29,145 bases of DNA from Priapulus caudatus. Taxonomy: Eukaryota; Priapulida; Priapulimorpha; Priapulimorphida; Priapulidae. The stretch is taken from positions 38,318 through 67,462 of the forward strand of contig NW_014578540.1 of assembly GCF_000485595.1 (NCBI RefSeq), written 5' to 3'. The position numbers and the translations under genes are program-made. Position 1 is the stretch's first letter. Each line of letters starts with the position of its first letter. The notes below the pieces were generated by a model. The model searched no databases and had not been told where the DNA came from. It saw nothing but the letters and a program-made list of their open reading frames with translations. Positions 4,541 through 27,435 of the stretch are shown in pieces.

Positions 4541-5497
4541 CACAGGCACTTGAAGCGTTTCAACTGTAAACACACGCCGCCGCCATTGCGCGCACACTGA
4601 CACATAAATATATATATATATCAAGAGCTAATAATACCTAGAGTGTACAACGGAAAAACGGGAAAATAGTGCTATTTCACGACAACATTATTTTACTTTG
4701 CCTGCGAGTCTATAATAATTTCATGGTATTGCATTAAGCAGAATTCTTTGCTCTCTAAAACAAGACCAACCGCTTGTCATACGATACTCCTAGGCGGAGA
4801 TATCGGCTCTAACCTCCCCTCCCAACATGCCAAAACCGCCGCCTCGAATCTACTTCTGTCCCCATCCTTCACGCGCTAAGCGTTGCTTCGTGAGAGTTCG
4901 GTTTTCCGCCATAATTTTATGAATGATTTTCGGGTGCAGGTGCAGGGTGGAGGTGACTTTCGGGGCATCGCCTATGCCTTATCTCCCATTATCTTTCCTA
5001 GCACGGTTAATGCGCCGTCATGATGGAGCCGGCAATGTTTTTTTTAATTAAGTCTCTACAAAGCAGCTAGTAAGAGTACCAAATTTGGGCATATGGACAC
5101 TCAATTATCAGCGCTCTCACAGCGTGACGGAAACCGATAGCCGAAATGCTTAGACGCGTGAAGGATGGGGACAGAAGTGGATTCGAGGCGGCGTTTTGCA
5201 TGTGGAGGGGAGGTTTAGGAGCCGATAATCTCCGCCTAGGAGTATCGTATTGACATAGCGGTTGGTCTTGCTTTTAGAGAGCAAAGAATTCTGCTTAATG
5301 CAATACATGAAATTATTATACACTCGCAGGCAAAGTAGAATAATGTTGTCGTGAAATAGCACTATTTTCCCGTTTTTCCGTTGTACACTCTAGGTATTAT
5401 TAGCTCTTGATATATATGTTATATATATATTTATGTGTCAGAGTGCGCGCAATGGCGGCGGCTTATGTTTACAGTTGAAACGCTTCAAGTGCCTGTG
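4541..5497. mobile_element. 957-bp foldback DNA element with ~340-bp terminal inverted repeats
   Basis: The left arm (about 4541-4880) and right arm (about 5153-5497) are reverse complements with scattered differences, separated by about 270 bases. The ends read CACAGGCACTTGAAGCG and its complement. The flanks carry an exact 8-base direct repeat GCCGTTAT at 4533-4540 and 5498-5505. An 8-bp duplication with CA...TG ends is known for hAT and P-like DNA transposons, so hAT-like is the leading inference. The 270-base centre has no transposase frame, making it non-autonomous. A relative sharing the same ends lies at 19514-19897. Confidence 0.88.
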
Positions 5498-6409: not shown

Positions 6410-6967
6410 ATGCTGCTGTCTCATGACATCAGTAAAGACGAGTTGAGGAGAGGCGACCACATCTACGTGTGGCGGTCCGTCTACCGTCACCATGGCATCT
6501 GGGACGGCAGAAAAGTCATCCACTTCAGTGGCGCAAAATCTGGCGACAAATCCAACGCGACAATAGGCAGAGATACCCTCGACGTATTCCTAGATGGTGG
6601 TAATCTTAAGATCTACCGTTACGGTATGAGCACGTGGAATACAAAGTCATGGTACGAGTTTGCTGGCGCGTCTACAACGGCTGAGAGCGACCCGCCGGAT
6701 ACGGTGATGAATCGAACAGAGAGCCGAATCGGAGATGCCGATTACAACCAGCTTTATACCAACTGCCTACATTTCGCGCTCTGGTGCAAGTTGGGAGGAC
6801 GCGGCGGCAATGTGCGTATGCAAACAACCCCAGCTAAAGAGTTTTTTGTAACGTTAATGTGTAGGATTGTTGTAAAAACGTTTTTATCATCAACGTCAGC
6901 AAGCTATCGCGCATGCGCGCCGGTAAGCGGACTACCGCGTATTCTTCTCTTATCGCTAGTAACTTGA
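6410..6967 (+). CDS. LRAT/H-REV107-family domain protein (exon or single-exon frame)
   Basis: The frame encodes an LRAT domain (NlpC/P60-like thiol fold; acyltransferases and phospholipases acting on membrane lipids). Visible in order: an acidic/basic start followed by RRGDHIYVWR, the catalytic-type histidine segment YRHHGIWDG (about residues 25-33), VIHFSG (about 36-41), the spacer segment SDPPDTVMNR, and the cysteine segment NCLHFALWCKLG (about 119-130). The His-His-Cys layout and the roughly 120-residue span fit the family. Translation starts at the ATG at 6410, directly after a TATAG that could instead be a splice acceptor, so the true start may lie in an upstream exon. The last ~40 residues do not look like the usual family C-terminus, and a good donor CCG|GTAAGC lies at 6922/6923, so the real exon may end there. 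The exact substrate cannot be inferred. Confidence 0.72.
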   Translation: MLLSHDISKDELRRGDHIYVWRSVYRHHGIWDGRKVIHFSGAKSGDKSNATIGRDTLDVFLDGGNLKIYRYGMSTWNTKSWYEFAGASTTAESDPPDTVMNRTESRIGDADYNQLYTNCLHFALWCKLGGRGGNVRMQTTPAKEFFVTLMCRIVVKTFLSSTSASYRACAPVSGLPRILLLSLVT

Positions 6968-13139: not shown

Positions 13140-15024
13140 CGTACAAGGATTTTAAATTGCTTATAGAAACAAAGTTCAAAATAAAATCAAGCAAAGGCTA
13201 ATTACTATACGGAAAAGGTTGAGGACCACAAAAATGACCCTAAAAAATTATGGCCAACTTTAAAGAGTATGGGGATGAAAAATAAGGGAGCCAGTGACTT
13301 GGGCGGGGTAGGACTAAAAATTGGATGAAATATATGTTTTGAGAAAGCAATTGTTGCAAATAATTTTAATAAATATTTCACAAGTGTGGCCTCAAACTTG
13401 GTGAACGATCTACCACAAAAGAAAGGGACGCATAATGAGATTAGTCTTCAAAATTATTATAGGGACAAAGGTGTAGTAAAAAAGTCATTTACTTTTACAG
13501 CGGTTGGAGAGGAAGAGGTACTACGGGTGCTGAAAAACATTAAGACAGGTAAGGCTATTGGGTTAGATAATATTCCCGCAAAATTTATAAAAGATGGATC
13601 AAACGTTATTTGCTCAGCTCTTACACATGTAATAAACATGTCATTTATCCAAGGAAAAATTCCTGATGACATGAAGGCAGCAAGGATCATTCCGATACAT
13701 GAAAAGAATAGCAAAACAGAACCCGGAAACTATAGGCCTAGGTTTTGGAGCGAATAGCCTATAACCAAGTAGAGAAATATTTAATAAAAAATTCCTTACT
13801 TTACGAGTTCCAATCTGGCTTTAGATCAAATTTCTCTCCTGACACAAGTTTAATCCATCTAAATGATATTATTCGTAATGTGTCGGACAAAGGCAATCTA
13901 GCTGGTATGGTTTTATTAGATCTTCAAAAAGCTTTTGATACCGTTGACCATAAATTTCTACTAGTCAAGCTAAAAACTATCGGAATGGATATTAGGACTG
14001 TGAAATGGTTCGGTGCTTATCTCTCTGGTAAAAGCCAAATAACTGATGTAGGAGGTACCTTCTCTAATAAGAACCCTATTGCATGTGGAGTACCACAAGG
14101 TTCGATTTTGGGTCCTCTGTTATTTCTGATTTATGTTAATGACATGGCAAAGGCAGTTAACGTCAAGCTTTTATTATATGCTGACGATTCGGCCTTAGTA
14201 GTTTTAGGGACAGAAGTACAGGCTATACAGAAAGAATTAAGTAGAGAACTGCATTCCATTAATAAATGGCTCAATGTTAATAATTTATCCTTGCATCTTA
14301 GAAAAACAGAAAGTATTATTTTTGGAACTAAACACAAACTCAGGGATAATCCAAAACTGGACATCAGAAGTAATTGGGTGGCAATTGCACATAAAAATAC
14401 AGTTAAGTATCTAGGAATAGACTTGGAAGACTCCATGAGTGGTGAGGTAACGGGAATTAAGGTTGTAAAAAAGGTTAACAATAGACTGAAATTTCTTTCC
14501 AGAAAAGCTAAGTATTTAAACAGCGGCATGTAAAAGATTACTAGTTTCTGCCCTAATTCAATGTCATTTTGACTATGCAAGCAGTATATGGTACAGCAGT
14601 CTTACAAAGCGCACAAGGTAAGCTGCAAATGTGTCAAAATAAAGCCATTAGATGTGTTCTCACCCTAGGTACTAGAGCACACATAGGTGCTAGAGAGTTC
14701 AAGGCTGTAAATTGGGTACCTGTAGCGTTCAGGGTAATGCAACTGAACGTCAATAGGGTTTTTCAAATATTACATAATCTCGGCCCACAGTATATGACAG
14801 AAGGTTTCATGTTAACGTCAGAAGTCCATAGTTTCAATACAAGGGAAGGTGAGATTTCTATTTTTAAACAGAGGGTGGGAGGGAAGCCGTGGGAAAAACT
14901 TTTTTACTTATACTGCAATTGAAGCTTAAAACTCTCTAGCACAGCAAGCTAAGACAAATTCTGTTTATTCTAGTTTTAAGTATAGTGTTAAGAAATGTCT
15001 GATGGAAAAGATAAAAACATTATA
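13140..15024 (+). pseudogene. LINE reverse transcriptase remnant
   Basis: Fragments in order: KKLWPTLKSMG, NNFNKYFTSVA, GLDNIPAKFIKDG, IPIHEKNSKTEPGNYRP, then a small out-of-frame deletion near 13740 removing the segment between NYRP and VLERIAYNQ. Next come FQSGFRSNFS, LLDLQKAFDTVDH (first catalytic Asp), CGVPQGSILGPLLFLIYVND and LLLYADDSALVV (catalytic Asp pair). The frame is interrupted by a stop at 14531-14533 and shifts again around 14620. It resumes at KLQMCQNKAIRCVL and continues, with further stops and shifts, to about 15024. The longest intact piece is 13745-14533. Confidence 0.92.
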
Positions 15025-18985: not shown

Positions 18986-19304
18986 ACTGTTTGTACTTGT
19001 GTGTATATTTTGCTCGGAGGAATATCCACGTCCTTAGTTTTAGGGTCGCAAGGCACCATAAAACAGCGTTACGCACTAGTGGTACGTAACAAAATAGACG
19101 CGGCCTGGACCCGCAGTCTGAGCCGGCAGTGAAAGGGTTTTAATAATTAGAATTAGCAAGAGCTGGGATTCGGGCTGAATCGTCCCCCTCCCCCGCACAA
19201 CAACAGCTTTCAGGCCCGTCGAACCAGTTTCTTTTTCTCTTTTCTTTCCTTTAAAAAAATCATATATGGGGCAACCGCCCCCCCGCCCCCCTTATGATCC
19301 CGAA

Positions 19305-20102
19305 GGAGAGAGCGATGGAGGGAAAGAGGTCGAGTGAAAGAAAATGAGAGAACCTGCCCCACGTGACGCCGCGCCCGTATATATATATATATATATATAT
19401 TAGAGACAATCTTTAAAAGTCCAAAGAACCAAGCCAGAGACGGAGAGAGAGAGAGAGACAACGACAATTCTCTTTTTAGTATATCTATTCTACGTGTAAG
19501 CAAGGTTTAAGCCCACAGGCACTTGGAGCGTTTTAATAAAATATAATGCTAAATAAATACGAAATCAATTTACTACCAAAGTTTTAATGTGTCTGTACTC
19601 TCTTTCACTTATTCTTGCCGACAATTTCCTGTAAATGCCGTCAACAAACGCTCAACAAATTTCTTCAACAAACGCTGGCTGCCGCCATTGCTGCCGCTGC
19701 ACACTAACAGATAAATATATACACATATATATTTATGTGTTAGTGTGCAGCGGCAGCAATCTGTTGACGGCATTTACAGGAAATCCTCGGCAAGAATAAG
19801 TGAAATACAGTATAGAAACATTAAAACTTTGGTAGTAAATAGATTTCGAATTTATTTAGCATTATATTATTTTATCGAAACGCTCCAAGTGCCTGTGGGC
19901 TTAGACCTTGCTTACACGTAAAATAGATCTACTAAAAAGAGAATTGTCGTTGTCTCTCTCACTCCGTCTCTGGCTTGGTTCTTTGGACTTTTAAAGATTG
20001 TCTCTAATATATATATATATATATATATACGGGCGCGGCGTCACGTGGGGCAGGTTCTCTCATTTTCTTTCACTCGACCTCTTTCCCTCCATCGCTCTCT
20101 CC
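19305..20102. repeat. ~800-bp near-perfect palindrome
   Basis: The left arm runs from GGAGAGAGCGATGGAGGG at 19305 through CCACGTGACGCCGCGCCCG, a (TA)n tract, CTTTAAAAGTCCAAAGAACC, GACAACGACAATTCTC and GTAAGCAAGG to the centre near 19700-19740. The right arm to 20102 is its reverse complement in the same order. The left arm carries about 45 extra bases near 19645-19690. Outer segments match almost base for base, so the arms are recent or still subject to gene conversion. The whole segment could form a large cruciform. Confidence 0.9.
19514..19897. mobile_element. 384-bp MITE related to the 4541-5497 foldback element
   Basis: The ends read CACAGGCACTTGGAGCG and complement, differing at one base from the element at 4541-5497. 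Both also share an inner CCGCCATTG and CACACTRACASATAAATATAT-type segment. Unlike that element, its flanks are inverted (TTTAAGCC versus GGCTTAGA) rather than direct repeats, because it sits at the centre of the larger palindrome. The central stem is GTGCAGCGGCAGCAAT and complement. Confidence 0.8.
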
Positions 20103-20149
20103 TCTCCCTCTCTCTCGTTCTTCCTCTCTCTTCCTCGCAAGGAAGCGAG

Positions 20150-20901: not shown

Positions 20902-20995
20902 CAACGGCATTTGCAGCAAAGCGGCCAACAGGGGGAGCGACCGCGGCCGGCGAAGGATAGTAGCGAGAAGTACCGCGAGGAGGCGATGGGAACAG
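20902..20995 (+). CDS. WASF: WAVE/SCAR exon (basic region after the WAVE homology domain)
   Basis: Bounded by the acceptor CTTGCAG (AG at 20900-20901) and a consensus donor ACAG|GTAAGG at 20995/20996. It reads in frame from its first base for 31 codons, ending KYREEAMGT, and leaves one base (phase 1). Joined to the next exon this gives REEAMGTEFINN. Known WAVE proteins have a Lys/Glu-rich segment followed by an MGxEF motif at the equivalent place, just after the WAVE homology domain. The first part (Gln/Gly/Arg-rich) is not conserved. The exons encoding the WAVE homology domain are not visible upstream in the window. Assignment rests on the matching phase, splice signals and position, so it is moderate. 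Confidence 0.6.
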
Positions 20996-21940: not shown

Positions 21941-22076
21941 AGTTCATCAATAATTATGCAGCGAGTAATGTGGTCGTGAGTCCGGGCCACGCCCCGCCCG
22001 CCTACGAACCACACAAGCAGCGGCCCAACAGCCTAGAGCTGGACAACCACGGTGGACCCTACTCCACCTACCCAGG
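21941..22076 (+). CDS. WASF: WAVE/SCAR exon (linker before the proline-rich region)
   Basis: The acceptor TTTCAG ends at 21940 and the donor GG|GTGAGT is at 22076/22077. The exon starts with AG, which completes the phase-1 codon of the preceding exon to give Glu. It reads EFINNYAASNVVVSPGHAPP, continues through a KQRPNSLEL segment and ends in GPYSTYP plus two bases (phase 2). The MGxEF join and a VVSPxHxPP-like segment recall the WAVE linker before the proline-rich stretch. Its last ~55 bases plus the donor are the founder of the tandem repeat at 22021-22620. The exon joined next is unknown because the following module lacks a clear acceptor. Confidence 0.6.
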
Positions 22077-22620
22077 GTGAGTGTGAGATAAGGAGGAAGG
22101 GAAGGAGGGAGGGAGGGGAGGAGGTAGGGAGATAGGGAGGGAGGGCAGGAGCGAGTGGCTCAACAGCCTAGAGCTGGACAACCACGGTGGACCCTACTCC
22201 ACCTACCCAGGGTGAGTGTGAGGGAACCAGGAAGGGAAGGGAGGAGGGGAGAAGGGAGGGAGGGATGGAGGGAGGGGAGGAGCGAGTAGCCCAACAGCCT
22301 AGAGCTAGACAACTACGATGGACCCTACTCCATCTACCCAGGGTGAGTGATGGAGCAAGGGGAGGGAATGGAAGGAGGGAGGGGAAGTAGGGATGAAGGG
22401 AGGGGAGGAGGAGAAGAGCGAGTAGCCCAACAGCCTAGAACTAGACCACTACGGTGGACCCTACTCCACCTACCCAGGGTGAGTGTGAGGGAAGGAGGGA
22501 GGGAGGGAGGAGGGGAAGAGGGAGGGAGGGATGGAGGGAGGGGAGGAGCGAGTGGCCCAACAGCTTAGAGCTGGACAGCCACGGTGGACCCTACTCCACC
22601 TACCCATGCGTGAGTGCGTG
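22021..22620 (+). repeat. ~133-bp tandem repeat of an exon 3' end, splice donor and purine-rich intron start
   Basis: The segment CAACAGCCTAGAGCTGGACA...ACCTACCCAG|GGTGAGTG followed by GGGA/GGA-rich sequence starts at 22026, 22161, 22292, 22428 and 22558 (spacing 135, 131, 136, 130). Copies 2-5 keep a GTGAGT donor (copy 5 altered to CCATGCGTGAGT) but have no pyrimidine-rich acceptor before them, so only copy 1 is a normal exon end. The GA-rich portions contain GGGAGGGAGGGAGGGG runs with G-quadruplex potential. Confidence 0.93.
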
Positions 22621-22745
22621 CCTGTGTGTGTGTGAGTGCGTGCGTGAGTGCGTGCGTGTTCGACTGAGTGAGTGCCTGTGTGACTGAGTGAGTGCGTGTA
22701 TGACTGAGTGAGTGTGTGTATGACTGAGTGAGCGAGTGAGCTCTC
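22607..22745 (+). repeat. GTGAGTGCGTGTG-type short tandem repeat
   Basis: Degenerate units such as GACTGAGTGAGTGCGTGT repeated through an intron, beginning right after the fifth copy of the donor-containing repeat. Confidence 0.85.
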
Positions 22746-23013: not shown

Positions 23014-23161
23014 AAAAGAAGAAAAAGAGAAATATCAATACCCGCTGCCAAAACGCCGAACCGAGCTGAGGACCCGAAGGCAGGGCATTCGGCCGAGAAG
23101 AAGCCGGTGGCGCCACCTGTGTCGGATCCGGGAAGAGACCTGATGCATGCGATCCGATCAG
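23014..23161 (+). pseudogene. WASF: 5'-truncated WH2/linker exon copy (module 0)
   Basis: From 23041 the sequence matches the 3' third of the exon copies downstream: PAAKTPNRAEDPKAGHSAEK, then PVAPPVSDPGRDLMHAIRSG, the first half of a WH2 motif, and a donor CAG|GTGAAT at 23161/23162 in phase 1. Upstream of 23041 homology stops abruptly. The frame runs back only to a stop at 23011 and no convincing acceptor is present. It may be a truncated copy that is spliced poorly, or the edge of a rearrangement or assembly join. If included, its WH2 half would join the following exon in frame. Confidence 0.6.
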
Positions 23162-23165
23162 GTGA

Positions 23166-23710
23166 ATGATGGAGAGGGAGGGGGAGGGGAGGGTGGGAGG
23201 GAGAGAGGGAGGGGTAAAGTGTGGGAGAGGGAGAGGGAGGGGGAGGAGGAGTGTAGGAGGAAAGGGGGGAGGGAGAGAGGGAGAGGGAAGGGGAAAAGCA
23301 GTGGGAGAGGGAGAGGGATGGGTAGAGCGTAGGAGAGCGGAGGAGGGAGAGGGAGAGCGAGATGAGAGAGGGAGAGGGAGAGGGAGAGGGAGAGAGAATG
23401 GAGGGGTTAAAGTGTGGGAGAGGGAGAGGGAGGGAGAGGGAGGGAGAGAGGGAGAGGGACGGGGAGAGCGAGGAAGGGGTAAAGCGTGGAGAGCAGAGAG
23501 GAAGCAGGGTACGGAGAGCGGCGAGGGAAGGAGAGAAGGAGGGGGTAAAGTGTGGAGAGCGGATGAGCCGTTGGGGAGAGAGCAGGGGCGAGGGGAGGGG
23601 GGGCGAGATAGAGAGAAAGGGGGAGAGAGGGGTAAAAGCGTGGAGAGAGAGGCGCAGGGGAGAGGGAAAGGGGCAGAGCGTGCGGAGGGGCAGGGAAAGA
23701 CAGGGCGTGC
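23166..23710 (+). repeat. GA-rich polypurine tract at an intron start
   Basis: About 540 nearly pure purines on the plus strand, made of GGGAGAGGGAGAGG-type units. The same kind of tract opens the introns at 24417-24640 and 26236-26400 and fills 25062-25290. It can form triplex or G-quadruplex structures and is complementary to the pyrimidine tract at 21523-21940. Confidence 0.92.
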
Positions 23711-24035
23711 GCATGTTGAAATTATAAATACCAAAAAGGAAACATTTCGCATACGATAGCTTTTGCTTATCGAAACCACTAACTTCTTTAAATTTTAATG
23801 CCCTCCGGGAAGGAGACCGCAATAATTTTAAGATTTATTTTCAGTTTGTTACAATCGTTGCAATTTGCTATAGTTATATACTCAGCCTTTGGAATGCGCA
23901 CGTGTACATATTTGCATGTAACTTGTAACTAATATTTTTTTACAAGTTATTAATATTTTTATTTTTAATATTTTATACTTTCGCAGTGTAAATTAATAAA
24001 TATTATTGTTATTAATTGAATTGTTATTGTTGCAG

Positions 24036-24416
24036 GCATTCAGCTGAAGAAGACAGAGGATAAGGGAGTGAAGGAGGCTGAGAAGAACCTTGGAGGGTAC
24101 GCTCCCGCGGTCTCGCCACCAGCGCTCGCCACCGTCCGACCGACCCACGCCGTGCTGCCCACGCGACCCGCCGCCGCGGCGGCCCCCGATCGTCGCCGAA
24201 GTGCCCCCGCCCGCCGCGTGCGCCCTCCCGCCCCCTCCCCCGCCCCCAGAGCGAAACCTGCGGGTTCCCCGGGGTTTCCTCCGCCACCGCTGCCTCCCGC
24301 TGTCGATACGCCGAAGGAAGCTGAGGCACCGAAGGCGGGGCACTCGGCCAAGAAGAAGCCGGCAGCGCCACCTGTGTCGGATCCGAGAAGTGACCTGGTG
24401 CATGCGATCCGATTCG
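24036..24416 (+). CDS. WASF: WAVE/SCAR WH2-linker-WH2 exon, module 1
   Basis: Acceptor GTTGCAG ends at 24035; donor CG|GTGAGT at 24416/24417. Length 381 (127 codons), phase 1 at both ends, so it can be added or lost without a frameshift. It starts with GIQLKKTEDKG, the C-terminal half of a WH2 motif with the classic LKKT actin-binding core. Next come KEAEKNLGG, a Pro/Ala/Arg-rich linker and a short polyproline stretch (FPPPPLPP). It ends with KPAAPPVSDPRSDLVHAIRF, the N-terminal WH2 helix as in the WAVE SDARSxLLxAIRxG motif. Part of the linker (about 24175-24240) is read in a different frame from module 3. Predicted role: binding actin monomers within the VCA region of the WAVE regulatory complex at the membrane. 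Confidence 0.85.
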
Positions 24417-24640
24417 GTGAGTGACGGGGGAGGGAAGGGGAGGGGAGAGTGGAAGGGAAGGGCGGAAGAAGAGAGGGACAGGGCGGGGTAAAGCGTGTGA
24501 GAGGGAGAGGGAGGGGAAGAGGGAGAGGGAGGGGGAGAGGAAGAGGGAGAGGGAGGGGGAGAGGAAGAGGGAGAGGGAGGGAGAGAGGGTGAGAAGGAGG
24601 GAGGAAAGGGGAGAACGTGGAAGGGAGGGAAGAAGGGCGT
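24417..24640 (+). repeat. GA-rich polypurine tract at the start of the module 1 intron
   Basis: GGGAGAGGGAGAGGAAGAGG-type sequence follows the donor directly. The intron then continues with a conserved segment (AGCTTTTGCTTATCGAAACC, GCCCTCCGGGAAGGAGACCG, CAGCCTTTGGAATGCGCACG) shared with the other module introns. It has an N at 24725. Confidence 0.9.
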
Positions 24641-24959
24641 GCGCATGTTGGAATTACAAGTACCAAAAAAGCAACAATTTCAGATACGATAGCTTTTGCT
24701 TATCGAAACCACACAAAAAAAATCNTTTTTTTAACTTCAATGCCCTCCGGGAAGGAGACCGCAATAATATTAGGGTCTATTTTACAGTGTTGCAATTTGC
24801 TATAGTTATATACTCAGCCTTTGGAATGCGCACGTGTACATATTTGCATGTAACTTCAGTATTTTTATGTACTTTAATATTTTTATTTTTAATATTTTAT
24901 ACTTTCGCAGTATAAATTAATAAATATTATTGTTATTAATTGAATTGTTGTTGTTGCAG

Positions 24960-25058
24960 GTATTCAGCTGAAGAAGACGGGGGATAAGAGAGTGAAGGAG
25001 GCTGAGAAGAACCTGGGAGGGTCCGCTCCCGCGGTCTCGCCACCAGCGCTCGCGACCA
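24960..25058 (+). CDS. WASF: WAVE/SCAR WH2-linker exon, module 2, cut off by an assembly gap
   Basis: The acceptor TTGCAG ends at 24959. The exon starts GIQLKKTGDKRVKEAEKNLG, continues GSAPAVSPPALA and matches modules 1 and 3 closely up to 25058. The N at 25059 is followed directly by intron-type GA-rich sequence, so the proline-rich linker, the next WH2 N-terminal half and the donor are absent. The simplest explanation is a gap placed where two similar repeats were joined. A true deletion is the alternative, in which case the exon would have no donor and would run into a stop (TAA immediately after the N in one frame). Confidence 0.75.
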
Positions 25059-25061
25059 NTA

Positions 25062-25290
25062 AAGTGTGGGAGAGGGAGAGGGAGGGGGAGAGTGAGGGGA
25101 GGGGAGAGGGGAGGTAGAAAGGGAGAGGGAGGGGGAGGGAGGGGTAAAGCGTGGGAGAGGGAGAGGGAGGGGAGAGAGGGAGAGGGAGGGAGAGAGGGAG
25201 GGGTAAAGTGTGGGAGAGGGAGAGGGAGAGGGAGGGGGAGAGGGAGAGGAAGGGCGAGGGAGAGAGGGAGAGGGAGGGGTGTGGGAGAGG
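25062..25290 (+). repeat. GA-rich polypurine tract after the assembly gap
   Basis: GGGAGAGGGAGAGGGAGGGG units as in the other module introns, here joined directly to a coding fragment by the N at 25059. Confidence 0.9.
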
Positions 25291-25668
25291 GAGAGACTTG
25301 TAATTTCAACATGCGCACGCCCTTGTTCGCTCCCTCCCACGCTCTCCCCTTTCCTACCTCCTTCCCACTACCAAAAAGGCAACATTTCGCATACGATAGC
25401 TTTTGCTTTTCGAAACCCACAAAACAAAAGAACTTCAATGGCCTCCGGGACGGAGACCGCAATAATTTTAGGATGTATTTTACAGTGTTGCAATCTGCTA
25501 TTGTTATACTCAGCCTTTGGAATGCGCATGTATACATATTTGAAAGTAACTTCAGTATTTTTATGTACTTTTTTATAATTTATTGATATTTTTATTTTTA
25601 ATATTTTATACTTTCGCAGTATAAATTAATAAATATTATTGTTATTAATTGAATTGTTGTTGTTGCAG

Positions 25669-26235
25669 GCATTCAGCTGAAGAAGACGGGGTATAAGGGA
25701 GCGAAGGAGACTGAGAAGAACCTGGGAGGGCCCGCTTCCGGGGTCTCGCCACCAGCGCTCGCCACCGTCCGACCGACCCACGCTGTGCTGCTCACCCGAC
25801 CCGCCGCGGCGGCGGCCCAGCAGCGACCCGCCCCCGCGGTCAAACCGCCCGTGCTCGCCACCGGGGGGCGTCGCGAGACGCCGACGCCAGATAGCACGGG
25901 TAGCAGCGTGAAGCTGCCGCCGCCGACCCCGCCGCCGGAGAAGCAGGACGCGCCCGAAAACGACAAGATGTCGTCGTACTCGCCGACCCAGCCCCCGATC
26001 GTCGCCGACGTGCCCCCGCTCCCCGCGTGCAACCCTCCATCAACGCCCCCGCCCCCGCCCCCGCCCCCGCCGCTCCCCGGTGCAAAACCTGCGGGTTCTT
26101 CGGGGCTTCCTCCGCCGCCGCCTCCCGCTGTCGATACGCCGAAGAGAACTGAGGCGCCGAAGGCGCCCGAGAAGAAGCCGGCAGCGCCACCTGTGTCGGC
26201 TCCGAGAAGTGACCTACTGCATGCGATTCGATTAG
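25669..26235 (+). CDS. WASF: WAVE/SCAR WH2-linker-WH2 exon, module 3
   Basis: Acceptor GTTGCAG ends at 25668; donor TTAG|GTGAGT at 26235/26236. Length 567 (189 codons), phase 1 at both ends. It begins GIQLKKTGYKGAKETEKNLG. The proline-rich linker is longest here: KLPPPTPPPEKQDAPENDK, YSPTQPPIVADVPPLPA, an (P)9 run before LPGAKPAGSS and a second PPPPPP run, the profilin- and SH3-binding type of sequence known in WAVE proteins. It ends KKPAAPPVSAPRSDLLHAIR, giving the closest match to the WAVE WH2 helix. This is probably the ancestral-type exon, since it is the longest and keeps a consistent linker frame. It splices in frame to the terminal CA exon. Confidence 0.88.
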
Positions 26236-26400
26236 GTGAGTGACGGGCAGGGAGGGGGAGGGAAGGGTGGGAGGGAAGGGGGGAGGGAGAGAGGGAGGGG
26301 GAGAGAGTGAGGGGTAAAGCGTGGGAGAGGGAGTGGGAGAGGGAGAGGGAGGGAGAGAGGGTGGGAAGGAGGGAGGAAAGGGGAGAGCGTGGAAGGGATG
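26236..26400 (+). repeat. GA-rich polypurine tract at the start of the last intron
   Basis: Same GGGAGAGGGAG composition as the other module introns. The intron is only about 300 bases long and has an N at 26437, after which the conserved intron middle seen in sister copies is missing. Confidence 0.9.
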
Positions 26401-26538
26401 TAAGAAAGATGTGTGCATGTTGAAATTACAAGTACCNTTTTATATACTTTTATTAATATTTTTATTTTTAATATTTTATACTTTCGCAGTATAAATCAAT
26501 AAATATTATTGTTAATAATTGAATTGTCATTGTTGCAG

Positions 26539-26738
26539 GCATTCAGCTGAAGAAGACGGGAGATAAGGGAGTGAAGGAGACTGAGAAGAACCTGGGAGGC
26601 TCCATTGACGTCACGTCGATCCTTGCCCGCCGCATCGCAGTCGAGTATTCCGACTCCGACTCCGACTCCGACTCCGACTCCAGCGAGAGCGAGTACGACG
26701 ACAACGAGTGGGACGACAACGGCGACGACGACAAGTGA
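26539..26738 (+). CDS. WASF: WAVE/SCAR terminal exon: WH2 end plus central and acidic (CA) domain
   Basis: The acceptor GTTGCAG ends at 26538, and the stop TGA is at 26736-26738. It reads GIQLKKTGDKGVKETEKNLG, then SIDVTSILARRIAVEYSDSD, a (SD)n run, then SSESEYDDNEWDDNGDDDK. The central segment closely matches the vertebrate WAVE consensus DVATILSRRIAVEYSDSE, and the acidic tail with its single Trp is the known Arp2/3 contact. This identifies the gene family with high confidence. Together with the preceding WH2 halves it forms the VCA module that activates Arp2/3. The tail after the Trp is longer than in vertebrate WAVE proteins (NGDDDK), and the (SD)n run is expanded by a GACTCC repeat. Confidence 0.95.
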
Positions 26739-26742
26739 ACGC

Positions 26743-26859
26743 CTCGCTCGTCGCATCGCTGTGGAGTATTCCGACTCCGACTCCGACTCCGACTCCGACT
26801 CCAGCGAGAGCGAGTACGATGACAGCGAGTGGGACGACGACGGCGACGACGACAAGTGA
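26743..26859 (+). pseudogene. WASF: Second copy of the CA-domain coding segment after the stop codon
   Basis: Starting five bases after the terminal stop, the sequence again encodes LARRIAVEYSDSD, the (SD)n run and SESEYDDSEWDDDGDDDK plus a TGA at the end, but in a frame shifted by one relative to the gene. It lacks the WH2 part and an acceptor. The conserved Arg-Arg-Ile-Ala-Val-Glu-Tyr and Trp codons are intact, so the duplication is recent or constrained. As it stands it is 3' UTR sequence. Confidence 0.85.
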
Positions 26860-27435
26860 ACGCTTGTGCGAATACGACGATGACGGCGACGACGACAAGT
26901 GAACGCTGGAGCGAATACGACGATGAGGGCGACGACAAGTGAACGCTGGCGTGAGTACGACGATGACGGCGACGACGACAAGTGAACGCTGGATCGAATA
27001 CGACGATGACGGCGACGACAAGTGAACGCTGGAGTGAGTACGACGATGACGGCGACGACGACAAGTGAACGCTGGATCGAATACGACGATGACGGCGACG
27101 ACAAGTGAACGCTGGAGTGAGTACGACGATGACGGCGACAATGACGGCGACGATGACGGCAACGATGACGGCAACGATGACAAGTGCACGCTGGGGCGAA
27201 TACGACGATGACGGCGACGGTGACGGCGACGATGACGGCACCGATGACAAGTGAACGCTGGAACGAATACGACGACGACGGCGACGCCGACAAGTGAACG
27301 CTGGTGCAAGTACGACGACGGCAACGACAAGTGAACGCTGGTGCAAGTACGACGACGACGACGGCAACGACAAGTGAACGCCACTTGCTGATTCCAATAT
27401 GACGACAGCAAGTGGAACGACAATGACGAGTGTTT
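26860..27435 (+). repeat. Minisatellite grown from the acidic-tail/stop-codon sequence
   Basis: About a dozen units of 36-42 bases of the type GAATACGACGATGACGGCGA followed by CGACAAGTGAACGCTGG. In one frame each encodes EYDDDGDDDK then a stop, the end of the WAVE acidic tail. Around 27125-27260 the GACGGCGACGAT sub-unit is expanded. The array ends in a more diverged YDDSKWNDNDE-encoding copy at 27398-27430, in the third forward frame. Confidence 0.92.

Follow-up and report, generated by a model that had tools for sequence, protein, structure and literature searches.

Duplicated Proline-Rich/WH2 Modules in a Diverged WAVE Paralog of Priapulus caudatus: A Possible Multi-WH2 Protein

Introduction

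Two WH2 domains are described for the WAVE of Ectocarpus siliculosus, and likewise for 3 of the 11 WAVEs of Trichomonas vaginalis, in the part of PMC3298513 that was available. That source also describes exons 11A and 11B of Aplysia WASP, which are mutually exclusive and cover the C-terminal half of the second WH2 together with the C domain. With regards to function, the accessible sections of PMC5753033 report that the proline-rich and WH2 parts of WAVE1 jointly speed elongation from profilin-actin, with WAVE1 acting as a distributive polymerase, and the available part of PMC4506460 notes that Spire and Cordon-bleu nucleate actin through their WH2 repeats. A literature search for multi-WH2 WAVEs or exon duplication, covering the titles and abstract openings of the best matches listed, yielded nothing beyond PMC3298513, which is no proof of absence. 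The present analysis concerns a WAVE-family gene in a stretch of Priapulus caudatus DNA (the window, 29,145 bases in full, corresponding to C1461:38318-67462 in an assembly of 385 Mb and 2952 contigs).

At 23,041-26,738 on the forward strand the window holds the 3' end of this gene, in which four C-terminal and three visible N-terminal halves of WH2 domains (C-halves and N-halves) are carried by phase 1-1 exons. It is tentatively read here, with a likelihood judged a little short of even, as the 3' half of a second, diverged WAVE gene (WAVE-B) whose duplicated proline-rich/WH2 modules predict a multi-WH2 protein. An earlier sequence-only reading had described a WAVE gene with duplicated WH2 exons; the array is indeed present, but the gene is not the canonical WAVE, which sits on another contig, C299, with one WH2.

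The WH2 Module Array

The array is composed of a first copy (E0), linker exons (M1, M2 and M3) and a last exon, with lengths given in nucleotides (nt):

23042-23161, + strand: E0, first WH2 N-half (DLMHAIRS G), the exon's 5' part being absent; placed by alignment to M1 and M3
24036-24416, + strand: M1, linker exon with WH2 C-half, 112-residue linker and WH2 N-half; phase 1-1; 381 nt
24960-25058, + strand: M2, first 99 nt of a linker exon, ending at an N; N-half and donor lie outside the readable sequence
25669-26235, + strand: M3, WH2 C-half, 174-residue proline-rich linker and WH2 N-half; phase 1-1; 567 nt
26539-26738, + strand: last exon, WH2 C-half, central helix (IDVTSILARRIAVEYSD), acidic tail with W, and stop

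Acceptors of one near-identical type (TTGTTGCAG|G[CT]ATTCAGCTGAAGAAGAC, or with TTATTG/TCATTG variants before GCAG) open the exons at 24036, 24960, 25669 and 26539, and donors of one type, after CATGCGAT[CT]CGAT.., close them at 23161, 24416 and 26235. The in-frame AIRxG|IQLKKT junctions previously proposed at 23161-24036, 24416-24960 and 26235-26539 were all confirmed, reading AIRSG|IQLKKT, AIRFG|IQLKKT and AIRLG|IQLKKT, respectively, each with the Gly codon split in phase 1, and IQLKKT is the same in all four copies. Tandem phase 1-1 exons in which a linker stands between the closing part of one WH2 and the opening part of the following one, as had been proposed, are seen whole in M1 and M3, both of which have lengths that are multiples of 3. 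The frame is kept for any visible donor paired with any of the four acceptors, in agreement with the earlier suggestion that symmetric phases would permit splicing to vary the WH2 number. A fourth WH2 is implied, not seen, because the readable part of M2 stops after 99 nt, at the N at 25059; the fourth junction, proposed on condition that M2 is complete, stays implied as well. The genomic junctions predict that two or more WH2 domains may be encoded by one transcript.

The linkers differ in length and composition. Alignment of M1 with M3 places 176 + 22 nt as missing from M1, which shifts the frame for approximately 20 codons and then restores it. Proline content amounts to 27% in M3, with runs of 9 and 6, and to 21% in M1, with one run of 4. 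A scan of the window at Rfam gathering scores gave no match.

Family Membership

The proposed assignment to the WAVE/SCAR family is borne out. When compared with PDB, the spliced M3 end and last exon matched WAVE1 chains with E-values between 8.1e-8 and 2.9e-7, compared to 0.017 for N-WASP, and the WAVE1 alignment spanned the WH2 before the central-acidic segment (CA). A WASF profile, built from the WASF proteins that form the best 120 of 796 matches, was compared with 909 stretches from the six-frame translation of the window. It recognised the last exon at 6.8e-14 and, at the N-half ends, M3 at 1.7e-6, E0 at 8.3e-4 and M1 at 0.0012. C-halves alone scored weakly (M2 0.15, M1 2.2, M3 absent from the best 30 matches), no better than chance rows elsewhere (0.16-0.9), and they are identified by their DNA-level identity to the last exon rather than by the profile. 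Along the profile, N-half matches stop at position 451 and C-half matches start at 448-450. A WAVE-type central-acidic C-terminus is present in the window gene by both the PDB WAVE1 and the WASF profile matches, as is the WAVE layout of a basic region (exon E4, see below) followed by a proline-rich one (the M1 and M3 linkers). Judged by the junctions and these matches, the array is not due to chance.

Protein searches were also carried out with the spliced model, for which 7992 candidates were scored and 796 reached E ≤ 0.001. The best 120 of the 796, bearing vertebrate names, were inspected, and 120 of 120 contain one WH2 each as judged by a sequence pattern of our own. The choice of candidates was restricted as to shared words, number and length, and multi-WH2 WAVEs in relatives could escape such a search. 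The part encoded by E4 and the following exon E5, as sole protein query, returned 4 candidates with none at E ≤ 1, and the linker part 7988 scored candidates with none at E ≤ 0.1. No relative was found for M3 in the genome contig collection, or for the last exon in the viral contig collection.

A Canonical WAVE on C299

Frog WASF2 protein (P0032) was used as the query for WAVE loci across the readable assembly. It identified a second WAVE locus on C299 through the last exon (3.3e-8), a part of the WHD (residues 138-177, 2.0e-6) and a proline-rich part (2.2e-5), while the last exon of the window gene ranked fourth in the same search (7.2e-5). In its readable part the C299 gene has one WH2, DLLNSIIKG|IKLKKV, interrupted by a phase 1 intron in the position also found in the window. 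The basic exon of the C299 gene is identical to E4 in 15/33 residues (E 4e-7 in a two-sequence comparison). The C299 WHD exon, when compared with the assembly, has C299 itself as sole match. Residues 1-137 of frog WASF2 found no match in the assembly, C299 included, where positions 113334-124000 of the fetched stretch are N. Because C299 holds a canonical single-WH2 WAVE, with the same split intron and the only WHD exon found, WAVE-B is, on sequence grounds, a diverged paralog and not the canonical WAVE of this genome.

The divergence appears old. Between C299 and the window, the 18 codons of the central helix show 12 base differences, 9 silent and 3 not, giving proportions of synonymous and non-synonymous differences (pS and pN) of 0.62 and 0.08. 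Random placement of the 12 differences gave so few amino-acid changes in 0 of 5000 trials, draws that hit a stop being counted as not reaching. As the helix differences are mostly silent, the window gene is, by this comparison, an old paralog in which the Arp2/3-binding helix has been kept.

The C299 gene itself also contains a tandemly repeated proline-rich exon end with donor (CCTCCCCCACCCCCTCCACCAG|GTATGTG), in units of ca. 50 nt at C299:111881-112231 (- strand). Elsewhere in the genome, C109 (L035:3329-3961) encodes a VCA end that is WASP-like and has two WH2 stretches (43.8 bits in Pfam).

Origin of the Array

M1, M2 and M3 share the start of the last exon (IQLKKT...EKNLGG) as far as GAACCT[TG]GGAGG and then become proline-rich, while at the same divergence point the last exon passes into the central helix. 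Because all three modules open like the last exon before turning proline-rich, the alignment shows each linker exon to be a chimera in which the start of the last exon continues, in frame, as the proline-rich exon. Such units probably arose by head-to-tail duplication of a segment that began inside the proline-rich exon, crossed the phase 1 intron and ended within the last exon. This would constitute a simple path from one WH2 to several, namely tandem duplication with both ends in the exons flanking the phase 1 intron within the WH2, an intron present in both genes. Two repeats belong to the array and its immediate 3' side:

25463-25552, no strand assigned: dispersed repeat in the intron before M3, with homologous stretches before M1 and M2
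26742-26862, + strand: tandem copy of the 3' end of the last exon, 121 nt, past the stop and out of frame; repeat family D16, 93%, 8/118 differences

The dispersed repeat has at least 35 matches on other contigs, all to 25463-25552 or 25615-25651 and reaching near the acceptor. Since it is present at the same place before M1, M2 and M3, the element was probably inserted before the duplication. Beyond the 121-nt copy, within window 26742-27387, follow repeats of ca. 40 nt resembling the final codons of the last exon. Elsewhere in the window, apparent retroelement pieces occupy 13329-14922, with a reverse transcriptase domain at 13742-14530 (Pfam RVT_1, 1.2e-26), and long inverted repeats are found at window 4541-5497 and 19304-20103 (five arm pairs, 78-151 nt, 91-99% complementary).

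Weighing the Alternatives

Upstream of the array, the following exons and exon-end copies are recognised:

20917-20995, + strand: E4, basic-region exon (QSGQQGERPRPAKDSSEKYREEAMGT), an open frame between AG and GTAAGG
21941-22076, + strand: E5 (EFINNYAASNVVVSPG...PYSTYPG), with a pyrimidine-rich acceptor, in frame with E4; phase 2 donor GG|GTGAGT
22160-22640, + strand: four extra tandem copies of the E5 3' end with donor, units of 130-136 nt; repeat family D10

The E5-end copies, five in all with the one inside E5, start at 22025, 22160, 22291, 22427 and 22557; the fifth copy of this array (22025-22640) has an altered donor.

A number of findings weigh against a multi-WH2 product of WAVE-B, beginning with its 5' side. 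The 5' part of E0 is missing, in that homology to the other copies begins only at about 23042 and the frame is open only from 23014. Its candidate acceptors at 23019, 23022 and 23028 are weak, with pyrimidine fractions (positions -20 to -4) of 0.41, 0.35 and 0.18, compared to 0.59 for the modules, 0.94 for E5 and 0.47 for E4, which is taken as real; because E4 reaches just 0.47, this measure alone is insufficient to exclude 23019. The donor of E5 is of phase 2, and the modules and the last exon start in phase 1; E5 joined directly to any of these (M1, M2, M3, last exon) would be out of frame, and it therefore needs E0. A joined model, E4-E5-E0(23019)-M1-M3-last, is in frame and free of stops to the end, M3 being placed twice in the model tested. 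Furthermore, a WHD exon was not found in readable C1461, nor any WHD in the window by the WASF profile. The WHD may be hidden or missing, because C1461 is N at 1-22060 and 34558-38317 (25,820 bases in total). An open frame with an LRAT domain (window 6410-6859, + strand, Pfam 3.8e-19) lies 5' of E4 on the same strand, and a WHD located further upstream would therefore need an intron spanning it.

The WH2 domains themselves add to these points. Only one of the three visible junctions exceeds the Pfam WH2 cut-off of 23.1 bits (E0|M1 23.9, M1|M2 17.2, M3|last 22.3), and the comparison sequences score higher, at 28.2 bits for C299, 35.0 and 35.1 for two vertebrate fragments and 31.5 for a whole pig protein. 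The skipping joins M1|M3 and E0|last reach 16.8 and 19.8 bits, and the best Pfam result on unspliced exons is a weak WH2 of 11.5 bits in M3. Relative to C299 the WH2 halves show no constraint like that of the central helix, with 7-9 amino-acid-changing differences in 10-11 codons. Among the copies, and with few sites throughout, the pooled ratio of non-synonymous to synonymous change (dN/dS) is 0.36 for the 20-codon C-half (6 pairs, one of them without silent change), 0.55 for the C-half plus linker start (M1-M3 1.50, M2-M3 2.71) and 1.20 for the 40-codon N-half stretch (3 pairs). Little weight attaches to M1 and M3 being open, because random substitution often leaves frames open: at 12% substitution the frame was still open in 0.21 (M3) and 0.40 (M1) of 5000 runs.

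In addition, all three Ns of the window fall inside the array, between 24725 and 26437:

24725, no strand: single N in intron 2, an assembly join or ambiguous base
25059, no strand: single N within exon M2
26437, no strand: single N in the last intron, where ca. 200 nt found in other units are absent

The pieces separated by these Ns share identical runs of 68 and 84 bases, and for both reasons the order of the units is insecure. In the acceptor-side alignment the copies differ by 6-12%, with indels, while the 74 intron bases preceding the acceptors show just 0-4 differences between copies. No second locus for the coding parts of the last exon or M3 was found outside C1461 in the readable assembly; the last-exon query gave one match off C1461, on C227, which covers intron (query 3-45). 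A separate allelic contig is, by these searches, ruled out in the readable assembly, and alleles chained within the scaffold could still account for the units. The in-frame junctions behind the earlier multi-WH2 prediction hold, but it had missed the shortened E0 and its weak acceptors, the phase 2 end of E5, the unfound WHD and the three Ns in the array.

An unlikely but serious alternative is that the array is real and belongs to a 5'-truncated or decaying WAVE paralog without a multi-WH2 product, its repeats drifting without selection. The unfound WHD exon and the LRAT frame upstream of E4, the shortened E0 with its weak acceptors, the N-half ratio of 1.20, the M1 and M3 frames that chance would often leave open, and the duplication of nearby exon ends are all consistent with decay; strong conservation of the central helix against C299, an invariant IQLKKT in four copies with a C-half ratio of 0.36, and module splice sites of standard form where visible argue against it. 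That the array is an assembly artefact, in which repeat or allelic contigs were mis-chained into one scaffold, is considered quite unlikely. It would explain the clustering of the Ns, the exact matches joining units, the near-identical introns before the acceptors and an M2 seen within 333 bases bounded by Ns on either side; the upstream side of E0 could likewise be a chimeric join, and alleles chained inside the array would give no second locus. Alleles are expected to differ less than the 6-12% with indels found between units, however. A single stretch free of Ns spans E0, intron 1 and all of M1, another such stretch contains M3 in full, and the readable assembly yielded no second locus.

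The modules could also form an alternative-splicing cassette, chosen among so that most transcripts contain one WH2, as with the mutually exclusive exons of Aplysia WASP, the precedent given in the available part of PMC3298513. All visible modules are of phase 1-1 and any donor-acceptor pairing is in frame, as a cassette would require, but the core motif is nearly alike in the copies, whereby exclusive choice would alter little, and each linker exon carries both WH2 halves, so that the frame does not require exclusive choice. This reading is regarded as improbable, the least probable of those weighed here.

Predicted Function of a Multi-WH2 WAVE

If WAVE-B encodes a multi-WH2 protein, a transcript with E0 spliced in would encode three WH2 domains, or four if M2 is complete, set apart by long linkers and placed ahead of a single central-acidic segment. 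The repeated proline-rich/WH2 units would most likely hold several actin monomers, as profilin-actin on the proline runs and as actin on the WH2 domains, and pass them on to barbed ends close by, with the Arp2/3 complex engaged through the single CA. Skipping of a module would leave an intact WH2 and alter the number alone. Monomer feeding is favoured over Spire-like nucleation because the window gene repeats the WAVE1-type pair of proline-rich part and WH2, more clearly in M3 than in M1.

A broader proposal, rather doubtful at present, is that an animal lineage kept an ordinary single-WH2 WAVE and in addition evolved a WAVE-type activator with three or four modules and one CA, whose module number is set by splicing. 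The activator may lack a WHD and hence not belong to the WAVE regulatory complex. Such a protein would be a tunable, actin-feeding activator of Arp2/3. If expressed, WAVE-B would offer a natural test of the effect of WH2 number in a WAVE-type activator, with a single-WH2 paralog in the same animal.

Comparison With Known Systems

Spire and Cordon-bleu share with the window gene the presence of several WH2 domains per chain. They are not known to have an Arp2/3-activating CA, and their WH2 domains are closely spaced on shorter linkers. The window gene differs in its linkers of 112 and 174 residues and does not show this close spacing. As such linkers are unlike closely spaced Spire-type arrays, linear nucleation, which the sequence-only reading had raised, is without direct support and was set aside as the leading reading on linker length; the distributive polymerase action described for WAVE1 in the accessible sections of PMC5753033 fits better. 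N-WASP and other two-WH2 WASPs likewise carry tandem WH2 domains ahead of one CA, and differ in their N-terminal domains. The WH2 domains of the N-WASP type are closely placed.

Aplysia WASP shares exon duplication with a boundary within the WH2; it is a WASP, however, not a WAVE, and in the described part of that system the exclusive exons include the C domain and the WH2 number stays constant. With canonical WAVE/SCAR proteins (WASF1-3 and the C299 gene) the window gene has in common a basic-region exon, a proline-rich region, the central helix SILARRIAVEYSDSD and an acidic tail with W, and with C299 also a WH2 split by a phase 1 intron. C299 differs in having one WH2 and a WHD, compared to three visible or four implied WH2 domains and no visible WHD in the window gene. 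The WAVEs of Ectocarpus and Trichomonas share more than one WH2, contrary to the earlier premise that WAVEs are known with a single WH2 only, and differ in having two, in being non-animal, and in that linker-exon arrays are not described for them in the available part of PMC3298513. Relative to the literature found, two-WH2 WAVEs are already known, and three or four WH2 domains in an animal WAVE paralog would be new.

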